Below are positions 401 to 54,992 of a DNA stretch of 64,000 bases, piece by piece. The notes beneath the pieces are model-generated. The model was not told the origin of the DNA, made no database searches, and saw nothing but the letters and a program-made list of their open reading frames with translations. A program made the translations under genes and the position numbers. The stretch's first letter is position 1. Every line of letters starts with the position of its first letter. The stretch is from Butyrivibrio fibrisolvens (lineage in GTDB: Bacteria > Bacillota > Clostridia > Lachnospirales > Lachnospiraceae), in assembly GCF_023206215.1 (NCBI RefSeq), contig NZ_CP065800.1:1054001-1118000 (forward strand), written 5' to 3'.

Positions 401-699
401 TTGAAACTTCGCACTTGCCAAACATACGCCACCCTTTGAGGCAGCGCCGATGCGGATAGTTTATAATGCATTTTCATATCTTGAAGGTGTTATAATTCAG
501 GGCATGATATCTGGATTTTTATATTCTAGGGTCTGAAACTCGCTTCGCTCAGACATGCAGACCCTAAGAAGAATATAAAAATCCATCTCTCATGCTCCTG
601 AATTTTATAACATCTTCAAAAGATATGAAAATGCATTATAAACTATCCGCATCGGTGCTGCCTCAAAGGGTGGCGTATGTTTGGCAAGTGCGAAGTTTG
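401..699. repeat. Long inverted repeat element, copy 1
   Basis: Two arms of about 130 bases are nearly perfect reverse complements, from AACTTCGCACTTGCC at the left edge to GGCAAGTGCGAAGTT at the right. The centre (about 528-565) starts GGGTCTG, ends CAGACCC, and contains CTCGCTTCGCTCAGAC. Next to the loop the left arm reads GCATGATATCTGG while the right arm (reverse complement) reads AGCATGAGAGATGG, a small built-in asymmetry. The core and loop recur at 52642-52923 and, reversed, at 53147-53422; the outer arms do not. A transcript would fold into a very long hairpin. No transposase is adjacent and the nature of the element is unknown. Confidence 0.93.
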
Positions 700-722
700 A
701 GAAAATTAATCGATTAAAATTA

Positions 723-3907: not shown

Positions 3908-4552
3908 ATGGTTAGAAAAACTAAAGCGGTAATGGATAGAGTTAACGTCGTATGTGAGCGTCTTGATAACGAGTATGGCACAGATACGCGTACATATCTT
4001 GATCATAGGGATGCATTTGAACTTCTGATAGCAACTATACTTTCAGCTCAGTGCACTGACAAAAGGGTCAATATGGTAACTCCATCTCTTTTTGCCAAAT
4101 ATCCTACGGTACATGATTTTGCAACTGCCGATGTTAAGGAGCTTGAAGAAGCGATACATTCTATAGGCTTCTATCATGCCAAGGCAAGGAATATAATAGG
4201 CTGCGCCAGGAAGCTTGAAAGTGATTTTGAAGGAGAAGTTCCCAGAACTTTAGAAGAGCTTACATCCCTTCCGGGAGTTGGTCGTAAGACTGCCAATGTC
4301 ATAAGAGGCAATATCTTTGAAGATCCCAGTATCGTTGTAGATACACATGTTAAGAGAATCTCCAAAAGGCTTGGGTTTACAGATTCTGATGATCCTGTAG
4401 TTGTAGAACAGGACCTTATGAAGATACTGCCAAGGCAGAACTGGATCAGGTACAACATACAGATAATCTATCTGGGACGTACTATCTGTAAGGCACCAAC
4501 GCCAAGGTGCAGTGAATGCTTCTTGAAAGATATATGTCCTAGTTATAAATAA
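3908..4552 (+). CDS. nth: Endonuclease III (DNA glycosylase/AP lyase)
   Basis: Base-excision repair glycosylase for oxidised pyrimidines. The 214-residue length is typical. The helix-hairpin-helix LPGVGRKTANVI carries the catalytic lysine (Lys127) and VDTHVKRISKRLG the catalytic aspartate (Asp145). The C-terminus holds the four cysteines of the 4Fe-4S cluster spaced C-x6-C-x2-C-x5-C (CKAPTPRC, SEC, FLKDIC). TAGGAG precedes the ATG. It follows galT by 38 bases, probably without functional connection. Confidence 0.97.
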   Translation: MVRKTKAVMDRVNVVCERLDNEYGTDTRTYLDHRDAFELLIATILSAQCTDKRVNMVTPSLFAKYPTVHDFATADVKELEEAIHSIGFYHAKARNIIGCARKLESDFEGEVPRTLEELTSLPGVGRKTANVIRGNIFEDPSIVVDTHVKRISKRLGFTDSDDPVVVEQDLMKILPRQNWIRYNIQIIYLGRTICKAPTPRCSECFLKDICPSYK

Positions 4553-41383: not shown

Positions 41384-42554
41384 AAACATAATAATGCATA
41401 AAAAAAGAACTGCGGGACTTCTTATAATACTCATGGTTTTGACAATAGCATTGTTTGGAGGGAGTCTTTTTATAAAGAGTCTTAATAACGGACTTGATAG
41501 CCTTAACGAAAGACTGGGATCAGATATTATCGTACTTCCCAAGGATGCAGAATCTGAAGTTGACCTTAAAAACCTCCTTCTTCAGGGGACACCCGGATAC
41601 TTCTATATGGACAAGAGTATACTAAGTGAACTTGAAAATATAGAAGGAGTAGACAAGATATCAGCGCAGTATTTCCTTGTTTCTGCCAATGCAGACTGCT
41701 GCAGTGTCAAGGTTCAGATAATAGGATTTGATGAAAAGACGGATTTTACTATCAAGCCATGGCTTCATGAAAGTTACAAGGGAGTACTTAAAGACAATGA
41801 GATAATAGTTGGATCCATGCTTTCTACAAGAGTAGGGCATACGCTAAAACTATATGGCAAGGAGTTTCTTGTAGTTGGCAAGCTTGAAAAGACCGGAACA
41901 GGACTTGATACGGCAGTATATACAACAGGTGATACGGTTAAGACTTTGATAGGTGCAGCACAGGATAAGGGGATAAGCATATTATCAAAGCAAAGCCCGG
42001 ATGATGTTATATCTTCTGTATATATTGATATCAAAGACGGATATGACATTGATTCTATAGTATCTGATATTAATCTTGGCCATAACGAAGTCAAAGCGGT
42101 CAGATCCAAGACCATGATGACTTCTACCTCGGACAGACTGGGAATAATATCTGCCGCAATCTCATTTTTGATCAAAACAATATGGGTATTTGCGGCAGTA
42201 ATACTTATAGCAGCTTTCTATATCATAACAGGTGAGAGGAAGAGAGAATTTGCAGCTCTTAGAGTTATAGGAGTATCTAGGAAAAGGCTTGGAATCCTTG
42301 TTATGTCAGAAGCTCTTATACTTGGAGTTGTTGGAAGTCTTATAGGCATTATAATGACAGGAGCTGTCATGTATTCATTTAGTGTACTTATAGGTACAAA
42401 ACTTGACCTTCCGTATCTGTTGCCCGGCGCTTTCACCGCAGCATACTATATCTTAGTAACCTTTGCCGGCGTTGTCTTTATAGGAGCAGTATCAGGGCTT
42501 ATATCAGCATACAAGGCTGTATCTGTAGATACTGCAAAGATACTAAGAGAATAA
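41358..42554 (+). CDS. FtsX/MacB-like ABC transporter permease
   Basis: The 398-residue protein has one N-terminal membrane segment (about residues 20-40), a large extracellular MacB-PCD-like domain (about 41-270), and three C-terminal segments of the FtsX fold with GERKREFAALRVIGVSRKRL. This is the type VII ABC architecture used to move lipoproteins, peptides or signals rather than bulk solutes. The GTG start at 41358 has GGAGA eight bases upstream and overlaps DUF4418. The partner ATPase begins about 100 bases downstream. Substrate unknown. Confidence 0.88.
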   Translation: MNIRKLPLKNIIMHKKRTAGLLIILMVLTIALFGGSLFIKSLNNGLDSLNERLGSDIIVLPKDAESEVDLKNLLLQGTPGYFYMDKSILSELENIEGVDKISAQYFLVSANADCCSVKVQIIGFDEKTDFTIKPWLHESYKGVLKDNEIIVGSMLSTRVGHTLKLYGKEFLVVGKLEKTGTGLDTAVYTTGDTVKTLIGAAQDKGISILSKQSPDDVISSVYIDIKDGYDIDSIVSDINLGHNEVKAVRSKTMMTSTSDRLGIISAAISFLIKTIWVFAAVILIAAFYIITGERKREFAALRVIGVSRKRLGILVMSEALILGVVGSLIGIIMTGAVMYSFSVLIGTKLDLPYLLPGAFTAAYYILVTFAGVVFIGAVSGLISAYKAVSVDTAKILRE

Positions 42555-52641: not shown

Positions 52642-52923
52642 TCCCACTTGGAAGGATCAGTATCCAGAAAGCTTTACAGGGAGCGGACAGTATATAAACC
52701 ATTGTCGCGCTGTTAATCGTTTTATAAATTCATGGCATGATATCTGAAGCTTTTTATTCTAGGGTCTGAAACTCGCTTCGCTCAGACATGCAGACCCTGT
52801 GCAGAATAAAAAGCTTCATCTATCACGCTCATGAATTTTATAAAACGATTAAAAGCGCGCCAATGGTTTATATACTGCCCACTCCCTGTAAAGCTTTCTG
52901 GATACTGATCCTTCCAAGTGGGA
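52642..52923. repeat. Long inverted repeat element, copy 2
   Basis: Arms of about 118 bases run from TCCCACTTGGAAGGATCAG to its complement ending CCAAGTGGGA. The core around the centre matches copy 1: CATGGCATGATATCTG, TTTTTATTCT, then GGGTCTGAAACTCGCTTCGC to CAGACCC, then AGAATAAAAA and the asymmetrical CATCTATCACGCTCATG. Outer arms are unlike those of copies 1 and 3 but pair with each other almost perfectly. The outer sequence CCCACTTGGA and GACAGTATATA is partly echoed at 42570-42625 between the FtsX and LolD genes. Confidence 0.93.
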
Positions 52924-53146: not shown

Positions 53147-53422
53147 GGTATACTCAAAGGCTTTGCAGAGAGACGAAGATCTCGGGCGGACGGAATATGA
53201 ATCATTTACACGCTTTTAATTGTTTTATAAAATTCATGAGCGTGATAGATGGAGCTTTTCATTCTGTCTGGGGTCCACATGTCTGAGCGAAGCGAGTTTG
53301 GACCCCGGAATGAAAAGCGCCAGATATCATGCCATGAATTTATAAAACAATTATAGCGTGTAAATGATCCGTATTCCGTCTGTCTGAGATCTTCGTCTCT
53401 CTGCAAAGTCTTTGAGTATACC
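53147..53422. repeat. Long inverted repeat element, copy 3 (reverse orientation)
   Basis: Arms run from GGTATACTCAAAG to CTTTGAGTATACC, with CAGAGAGACGAAGATCTC in both. The core reads in reverse relative to copies 1 and 2: GAGCGTGATAGATGG is on the left, the loop is GGGGTCC to GGACCCC with GAGCGAAGCGAG, and CCAGATATCATGCC is on the right. Loop orientation and arm asymmetry flip together, so this is a defined element with direction. It ends 46 bases before the GH43 ATG. Confidence 0.93.
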
Positions 53423-53468: not shown

Positions 53469-54992
53469 ATGTATCAAAATCCGATTTTATATGCTGATTA
53501 TTCAGATCCTGATGTTATACGTGTAGGCCAGGATTTTTATATGGTGGCATCATCTTTTACATATCTGCCCGGAGTTCCACTTCTTCATTCTAAAGATCTG
53601 GTTCACTGGGAGATAATCAATTACTGCGTTTCAAAACTTCCTTTTGATAAGTACAACAGACCTTCTCACGGCTCCGGAACCTGGGCTCCGTCTATTAGAT
53701 ATCATGATGACACATTTATTGTGTTTATCCCTCTTCCGGATGAGGGCATCATGGTAGCCAGAAGTAAAGATCCATACGGCCAGTTCCAGCTTAACATGCT
53801 ATGTACATCTAAAGGCTGGATAGATCCTTGCCCTATCTGGGATGATGATGGAAGAGCATATATGGTATATGCACTTGCAAGGAGTAGATGTGGTATCAAG
53901 CACAGGCTCATGCTAGTGGAGATTGATCCTGAGTGTACAAGGCTTATTGGTGAGCCTATGCTTATCTTTGATGGAGAGCAAGTGGCGCCTACAACAGAAG
54001 GCCCCAAGATTTATAAGAAGGATGACTATTACTATATTCTTATGCCATCCGGAGGCGTTGCGACAGGTTGGCAGTCATGCCTTAGATCCAGGGATATACA
54101 CGGACCTTATGAGTACAAGGTTGTAATGCATCAGGGCTGTACGGATATCAATGGTCCTCACCAGGGAGGCTGGGTTGATACACCGGATGGTCGTAACTGG
54201 TTCGTTCATTTTCAGGATGTTCATGAACTTGGAAGGATCACACATCTTCAGCCTATGTGTTTTATTAACGGATGGCCCTTTATAGGAAGTGATCTTGACG
54301 GTGACGGGATAGGAGAGCCTGTCAAGGAATGGTCTGATCCTGTTGAAGGTGCTCCTGAATATAAGATAAGTACATCTGATGACTTTAGATCTGATAAGCT
54401 TGGGCTTCAGTGGCAGTGGCAGGCCAATCCCAACGAAGACTGGTATCAGCTTGATGATGGGCATCTTATTCTTTACTGTATGGCTCCTGGAGGAAGAGAG
54501 AATCTTTTGTGGTATGCGGGCAATGTCCTGACTCAGATACCTCAGAGTAAAGCTTTTACTGTGACTACATCGATCCATCTGTATCCCGGAGAAGATGGGG
54601 ATATAGCTGCTTGCGGTATTGTGGGGCAGAAGTATTCCTATGCCGGGATCAAGCGTATGCAGGGCAAGAACTTCGTTGTTATGTTCAAAGGAGATGTTAC
54701 TAACAAGGAATTCGAAGGAGAAGCTACCGAGACTTCATGCGATGCACAGTTAATAGATTCGGGCCATATATTTATGAAGATAGTGGTTCGTGAAGATAAA
54801 TCTTATAACTATTACTATTCGCTTGACGGAGTGTCTTATAAAGAGCTTGGCAAAACACAGATGCTGGAAAGAGCAACATGGACAGGCGCCAAGATATGCC
54901 TTTGGTCAGCCAATATGAATAATAAAGGAAGTGGCAATGGCTATGGTAGATATGACTGGGTATATATCACAGATGATACGGCGAAAGAGTAA
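53469..54992 (+). CDS. GH43 beta-xylosidase/arabinofuranosidase, intracellular
   Basis: The 507-residue enzyme has a five-bladed GH43 domain with YADYSDPDVIRVGQDFYMVASSF (base Asp13), WIDPCPIWDDDGRAYMVYA (modulating Asp) and APTTEGPKIYKKDDYYYIL (acid Glu), and a C-terminal beta-sandwich from about residue 300 (WQANPNEDWYQL) typical of GH43 C2 domains. There is no signal peptide, so it should cut imported xylo-oligosaccharides in the cytoplasm. Family members with this layout are beta-xylosidases or arabinofuranosidases. GAGG lies close before the ATG, which follows a long hairpin element by 46 bases. Confidence 0.93.
   Translation: MYQNPILYADYSDPDVIRVGQDFYMVASSFTYLPGVPLLHSKDLVHWEIINYCVSKLPFDKYNRPSHGSGTWAPSIRYHDDTFIVFIPLPDEGIMVARSKDPYGQFQLNMLCTSKGWIDPCPIWDDDGRAYMVYALARSRCGIKHRLMLVEIDPECTRLIGEPMLIFDGEQVAPTTEGPKIYKKDDYYYILMPSGGVATGWQSCLRSRDIHGPYEYKVVMHQGCTDINGPHQGGWVDTPDGRNWFVHFQDVHELGRITHLQPMCFINGWPFIGSDLDGDGIGEPVKEWSDPVEGAPEYKISTSDDFRSDKLGLQWQWQANPNEDWYQLDDGHLILYCMAPGGRENLLWYAGNVLTQIPQSKAFTVTTSIHLYPGEDGDIAACGIVGQKYSYAGIKRMQGKNFVVMFKGDVTNKEFEGEATETSCDAQLIDSGHIFMKIVVREDKSYNYYYSLDGVSYKELGKTQMLERATWTGAKICLWSANMNNKGSGNGYGRYDWVYITDDTAKE

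Follow-up and report, generated by a model that had tools for sequence, protein, structure and literature searches.

The three hairpins of the window (the whole 64,000-nucleotide stretch of Butyrivibrio fibrisolvens DNA that was analysed, positions 1,054,001-1,118,000 of contig 1 of a 4.45 Mb genome in two contigs) are members of a repeat family that numbers at least 111 copies in this genome, and its description as a mobile hairpin repeat is well supported. The explanation that we favour, at slightly better than even probability, is a non-autonomous mobile repeat whose tip is recognised on one strand in trans and whose arms are kept paired by template switching and/or selection. Under this explanation, one strand (the minus strand, with the tip 5'-TGTYTGA-GCGNAGC-GAGTTT-3') would fold as single-stranded DNA or RNA and its tip would be recognised by a trans-acting protein. 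The arms would be free to drift in sequence, pairing alone being required, and pairing would be restored through template switching between the arms at replication and/or selection on the fold, not through copying of the flanks. We infer both the recognition of the tip in trans and the renewal of the arms through template switching.

The window hairpins and their family in the genome

Inverted repeats were verified at 394-708, 52642-52923 and 53147-53422, with folding z-scores of -26.2, -26.9 and -22.0 (copies 1, 2 and 3, each against 100 shuffles), confirming the three hairpins with a common core of the initial annotation. Within each copy, the outer arms are 96, 95 and 86% complementary, respectively. 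The copies have in common the apical loop, a stem of the GGGTCTG/CAGACCC type, TTTTTATTC and the pair GCATGATATCTG / CATCTATCACGC. The features of the window are as follows.

401..701, plus strand: element copy 1 (subfamily A), full hairpin with ends TTGAAACTTCGCACTTG / CAAGTGCGAAGTTTGAG
489..604 (contig 1054489-1054604), plus strand: conserved core of copy 1, match of covariance model R1
536..555, plus strand: apical loop of copy 1, AAACTCGCTTCGCTCAGACA; on the minus strand TGTCTGAGCGAAGCGAGTTT, with apex GAA
42562..42631, plus strand: solo left arm with core and right arm absent, just past an ORF ending at 42554
52642..52923, plus strand: element copy 2, by inverted repeat and fold
52722..52837 (contig 1106722-1106837), plus strand: conserved core of copy 2, covariance model match
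52769..52788, plus strand: apical loop of copy 2, by loop sequence
53147..53422, minus strand: element copy 3, by inverted repeat and fold; convergent partner of copy 2
53205..53233, plus strand: promoter-like TTTACA-N17-TAAAAT in the right arm of copy 3, a consensus match only, pointing into the core (the minus strand of the element)
53231..53345 (contig 1107231-1107345), minus strand: conserved core of copy 3, covariance model match
53280..53299, minus strand: apical loop of copy 3, by loop sequence

Copy 1 starts four bases past an ORF ending at 396. A terminator-like inverted repeat (AAAAAAGCTTATATC...GATATAAGCTTTTT, 716-794) lies downstream of it, so that the copy has a stop codon on one side and a probable terminator on the other. 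The left side of copy 3 faces an ORF that starts at 53469.

When the genome was searched with a covariance model of the core for which 33 copies had been used, 149 matches were obtained, comprising 111 places and 38 reverse-strand echoes, which were removed. The copy number is a lower bound, as 150 of 2239 first-look candidates were scored, 149 of which matched. The first element set held 91 of 93 loci, a chance match (L080) and a degraded one (L082) being left out. Twenty-four of the 111 copies, among them copy 1, form subfamily A, in which the arms are near-identical; the copy nearest to copy 1 is 100% identical over a 50-bp left-arm segment. A second arm consensus (at most 7 mismatches) unites 29 of the non-A copies. 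Arms can be aligned across copies, although divergence between copies is nonetheless strong: window copies 2 and 3 have a 46-bp arm block in common at 80% identity, while the own-arm identity of copy 2 is 0.96 against 0.82 for the nearest other copy, and that of copy 3 is 0.90 against 0.68.

Subfamily A and the second branch have a common end, AAACTTCSCACTTG, of which a 17-base form has 224 matches in the genome (at most 2 mismatches) against 8 for the reversed pattern. As terminal inverted repeats, AAACTTCSCACTTG or a close form of it (at most 3 mismatches) was found at both ends of 57 of the 111 copies; both ends were not recognised in the other 54. Many further end matches that were inspected proved to be mini-hairpins of about 50-180 bp with the same ends, or solo arms; both forms would arise by internal deletion of the palindrome. 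The earlier statement that the outer arms differ completely is thus contradicted by the near-identical arms of subfamily A, the 46-bp block of copies 2 and 3 and the common end. Its picture of a conserved middle with variable ends holds in so far as the arms vary by subfamily and by drift of paired arms, and fails for the terminal bases, which in the more uniform copies are themselves conserved. A second loop type, CTCGCTTCGCGATAGCCTCG, is common to three copies (C1 2196602, 2450857 and 2456884), and at locus L044 (around 2550) the hairpin reaches about 460 bases, with pairing that extends far into both flanks of the element.

Of the 57 copies in which both ends were recognised, 15 are flanked by exact direct repeats of at least 8 bp (mean 1.2 and maximum 5 in 100 shuffles of the flanks), the remaining 54 of 111 being excluded from these counts. 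Such repeats occur in 12 of the 24 subfamily A copies (1.1 expected from shuffled flanks), where they are AT-rich and about 8 bp long, and in 3 of the 33 non-A copies with recognised ends (0.5 expected). In another species (G013), a reduced subfamily A copy consists of one arm and 29 bp of the other, the core being deleted. The search for an empty site of copy 1 showed its flanking genes matching at separate places in relatives, with no clean empty site at the five gene ends inspected. At the matching gene end of a related species (L345), an unrelated long palindrome, GGGGACGTATCAAATTGACTCATTGTGCACAATGAGTCAATTTGATACGTCCCC, lies past the stop codon of a ROK gene.

Matches of the core model were found in four of 25 genomes of the genus, the source genome included, and in none of 16 genomes from other families of the order (at most 91 candidates scored per genome in both sets), which is a patchy distribution. 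Absence from other genomes is weak evidence, because the assemblies are drafts and many loop matches of one of them (G260) are no more than about 100 bases away from a contig end; such hairpins may break short-read assemblies and hence be undercounted. An assembly artefact peculiar to this genome, the doubt raised at the outset, is contradicted by the location of the 111 places on two long contigs and by the related hairpins of other genomes.

No transposase or partner gene was found for the element. An autonomous copy with the same ends was absent from the places inspected (about 100 of the 224 end matches, and about 100 of 110 in a further listing). One candidate for such a copy, with ends 1.4 kb apart (2776574/2778012), resolved into a pair of mini-hairpins, one on each side of a 352-aa ORF. 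Composite transposons were considered for four wider pairs of full elements and are unlikely, since the enclosed ORFs include one dephospho-CoA kinase-like and one carbonic-anhydrase-like reading, both from sequence alone. Neither the loop nor the end repeat was found within about 3 kb of the single ISL3 match of the genome.

The apical loop, its orientation and the folding strand

The initial annotation had proposed a search for the core in other genomes, and the loop indeed extends far outside the genus. The apical loop AAACTCGCTNCGCTCARACA occurs in at least 117 stretches of a collection of 84,980 species genomes, and 80 loci were represented among the matches listed. Judged by record titles (and so classed to phylum level by name), these include Bacteroidota, Pseudomonadota, Bacillota, Fusobacterium, desulfo-groups, Nitrospirales, Magasanikbacteria and Gastranaerophilales. 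In most hits the bases flanking the loop pair with each other, a stem score of at least 7 being reached in 62 of the 83 hits with enough flank against 1.3 with shuffled right flanks, and the stems under AAACTCGCTNCGCTCARACA differ and are unrelated between loci. In a sample from the phylum of the source genome, the exact loop was found in 11 of 299 genomes, including the source genome with 84 matches, and a longer reversed loop pattern, which serves as a clean control, gave zero matches in any listed genome of this sample. Fourteen genomes of the listed loci hold between 1 and 65 loop matches at one mismatch or fewer; these counts are indicative only, since the loop is nearly symmetric and several genomes have nearly as many reversed as forward matches, which invalidates the reversed-pattern control. 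Viral carriage of the loop was considered and set aside (6 stretches in the viral collection). Next to the hairpins of other phyla, a scan of 79 of the 151 flanking ORFs detected 109 Pfam families. None of them was present in more than two members, giving no recurrent neighbour gene.

The hairpins are oriented with respect to each other and to genes. Of 13 neighbours at most 1.5 kb apart in the source genome, 12 are arranged plus-then-minus and zero minus-then-plus; in other genomes, a hand tally of pairs at most 600 bp apart among the matches listed gave 14 plus-minus, two minus-plus, one plus-plus and two minus-minus. The left side is the one closer to an ORF in 82 of the 111 copies (p 5e-7, longest-ORF rule), whether the end or the start of the ORF meets it. 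In other phyla, the left ORF runs towards the hairpin in 58 of 85 hits with ORFs on both sides, and within 200 bp of the loop the left gene is on the plus strand in 36 cases and on the minus strand in 8; hits with too little flank were excluded, and those counted, several of which come from the same genome, are not independent. In a Ralstonia genome (the one with locus L177), a pair of opposed loop hairpins makes up a single unit (L294, 1780-2280; L295, 1780-2260) whose outer ends are the inverted repeat CCAAAGAAAGTAAGCAAAGAAAGGCGCGCC and which folds as a whole into a larger hairpin. In a gammaproteobacterial MAG (L176, about 2805-2905 and 4390-4500), two successive co-directional ORFs each have a loop hairpin right after the stop codon, resembling a cassette array.

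On the minus strand the tip reads 5'-TGTYTGAGCGNAGCGAGTTT. Altered loops occur in 14 of the 111 copies; in the 97 with standard loop borders, the tip centre is GNA in 88 and GNNA in 5 (93 of 97). Among 49 loops from other genomes of the phylum, 31 are GNA, 12 ANA, 5 GNNA and 1 CCA, this tally covering 49 of 97 rows (9 of G016, 2 of G023 and 37 of G260 being left out). All ten four-nucleotide tips observed are GNNA. The family of G016 has a longer hairpin in place of the tip (e.g. GCCCAT/ATGGGC). The tip centre GCGNAGC fits the very stable GNA and GNNA mini-hairpins of DNA, as presented in the consulted part of PMC4686876. With a DNA folding model, the isolated core loop of the minus strand was not clearly better folded than that of the plus strand.

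Mismatches within the arms provide a second view of the folding strand. An A.C mismatch on the plus strand is a G.T (G.U) on the minus strand. The A.C:G.T ratio is 155:99 in the source genome (p 5e-4). When isolated mismatches are taken, it is 63:36 in non-A copies (p 0.009) and 20:9 in subfamily A (p 0.06), identical contexts being counted once in both. Twelve other elements of the genus give 7:8, and other phyla 38:9 (p 2e-5). A skew of comparable strength (26:10, 8.7:2.4 and 24:6.5, the last for other phyla) is already predicted by base make-up alone at the mismatched positions; this control is drawn from the same mismatches and neither confirms nor removes the strand signal. Together these ratios suggest that the minus strand is the one that folds, with a strand signal that is not clean.

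The same tolerance of wobble pairs on the minus strand speaks in favour of the first of the alternatives, a structured RNA. Here a right-arm promoter would drive transcription of the minus strand, the core hairpin would be the functional RNA, as a leader or small RNA, and mobility would be secondary. With a simple sigma-70 score, 53 of the 87 non-A copies have their best minus-strand site in a single 3-nt bin within the right arm (boxes TTGCCA and TAAAAT), and the best plus-strand site falls at the mirror position of the left arm in 41 of 87. The box spacing in examples is 17-19 in the right arm and 15-17 in the left mirror, a difference that coincides with conserved one-sided bulges; a right-arm promoter, predicted from consensus matches, could account for the retention of these bulges. 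The closeness of the left side to genes in the source genome also agrees with such a transcript. The promoter-like site of copy 3 is one of six in its stretch, where 3.9 are expected. Against this stand four observations. The right-arm bin is not the best promoter site in subfamily A. The pairing of the outer arms is left unexplained, since the RNA would begin near the core and omit most of the right arm. Near genes in other phyla are mostly in the sense of the plus strand, as the counts within 200 bp indicate. Finally, Rfam 15 at gathering scores gave zero matches in the window and one tRNA alone in 14 of the 80 fetched loci, with sub-threshold miRNA and viral models as the only other matches. 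We therefore regard a structured RNA as a serious but rather unlikely explanation.

Pairing of the arms and its maintenance

Outside subfamily A, the arms of a given copy mostly resemble each other more than they resemble those of other copies. Over the 50-bp segment beyond the conserved bulges, own-arm identity in the 87 non-A copies is 0.90 against 0.76 for the nearest other copy, the own arm being the closer in 74 of 87 (Wilcoxon p 5e-9); in subfamily A, both medians are 0.96. The arm covariation that had been suggested is thereby borne out, and it persists even though the arms, by their subfamilies and common ends, are in part also conserved elsewhere as belonging to one repeat family, a finding that had been expected to speak against the initial reading. 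In the core, 21 of 34 predicted pairs have two-sided changes (33 copies). Among variants present in at least three copies, 11 are two-sided and paired and 4 one-sided in subfamily A, and 30 and 9, respectively, in the second group; for single-copy variants the corresponding numbers are 14 and 44, and 45 and 74. Mismatches in non-A copies grow outward from the core (0.043 to 0.069, p 8e-5), and the trend in subfamily A is the opposite (0.054 near the core and 0.029 far from it, p 0.015).

These data bear directly on a second alternative, an ordinary MITE family in which copies start as near-perfect palindromes and within-copy likeness reflects recent insertion from many masters. Its ends, target duplications and copy number are MITE-like, and in subfamily A the within-copy identity equals that to the nearest copy. 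The non-A copies do not fit: target duplications remain in 3 of 33, yet their arms are as well matched as those of subfamily A (medians of aligned-arm match 0.947 and 0.952) and their nearest copies stand at 0.76. Furthermore, the loop is common across phyla and the stems are not. An ordinary MITE family is thus improbable. The model of the initial annotation, in which the arms would be built from the flanks through template switching when a copy inserts, would explain arms that are self-complementary and variable between copies, and is very hard to sustain given that the arms are family sequence, homologous within subfamilies and present at unrelated loci, with conserved ends and with target duplications outside them.

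As own arms match better than the nearest copy while few target duplications are left in non-A copies (54 of 87 of which are without both ends recognised), pairing seems to be maintained after insertion. It seems to be restored over time and in place, a view drawn from the missing target duplications. Template switching between inverted repeats is a known route to the re-matching of hairpin arms, according to the consulted part of PMC8794818; as in that case, one replication event would re-match both arms, with the difference that the case described there concerns RNA genes and here the process is proposed for a mobile repeat. It cannot be the sole cause, because the one-sided bulges and the mismatches inside GCATGATATCTG / CATCTATCACGC are conserved among copies, and this conservation suggests selection. 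Template switching and a functional duplex, the two possibilities first put forward, both remain live explanations.

Relation to known elements and significance

Integron attC sites have a conserved fold with a variable stem and one-sided bulges, are recognised as single strands and often lie just after a stop codon; they are bounded by RYYYAAC / GTTRRRY core sites. The present element resembles them in its conserved fold, variable stem, one-sided bulges, suggested single-strand recognition and frequent position past a stop codon. It differs in that its apex is conserved (variable in attC), its copies are dispersed, subfamily A has target duplications and no integron integrase scored above the TIGR02249 cut-off in the genome, where seven weaker matches were found. 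REP / RAYT systems have a Y1 transposase gene with the repeats on its flanks, and GTAG or a similar tetranucleotide at the foot of the hairpin. The three Y1 loci of the genome are without the element, neither the loop centre nor the end repeat being found within about 3-3.4 kb of each. REP, BIME and REPIN sequences, as characterised in the portions consulted of PMC3116915, PMC8266576 and PMC2817692, are likewise intergenic palindromes in many copies and in opposed pairs; the present element is far longer, has a conserved tip on a variable stem and, in subfamily A, lies between direct repeats about 8 bp long. With MITEs such as QMITE2 of Coxiella, which has direct repeats of 7-9 bp (PMC10969869, in part), it has in common its short length, lack of a coding gene, inverted ends, intergenic position, stem-loop and many copies. 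Unlike them, it is wholly one long hairpin, its loop is common across phyla, its arms drift yet pair, and no parent insertion sequence was found.

Literature searches were also carried out. The 20-base loop of the window was not found in print by an exact-sequence search for that variant, 13-mers from the loop family and keyword searches yielded no such element or named match by title or abstract start among the papers listed, and DNA and peptide strings from related hairpins returned nothing. A hairpin survey (PMC13155455) restricts spacers to eight bases in the part consulted, which places the loop outside its scope. These results suggest that the element is undescribed in the sources searched; no name was found in the database and literature searches, in agreement with the initial annotation.

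A wider proposal, which we put forward tentatively and as somewhat doubtful, is a class of mobile hairpins spread across many phyla and defined by the tip 5'-TGTYTGA-[GC GNA/GNNA GC]-GAGTTT-3'. Its members would have stems of any sequence, be found for the most part directly behind genes, frequently as opposed pairs, be mobilised by a single-strand-specific enzyme and have arms renewed by template switching. Were the tip the recognised part and pairing the sole demand on the stem, the identity of this repeat would be a structure. More than 100 natural copies in one genome would then be available for weighing template switching against selection in arm pairing, and the tip would serve as a sequence tag for a widespread mobile element.
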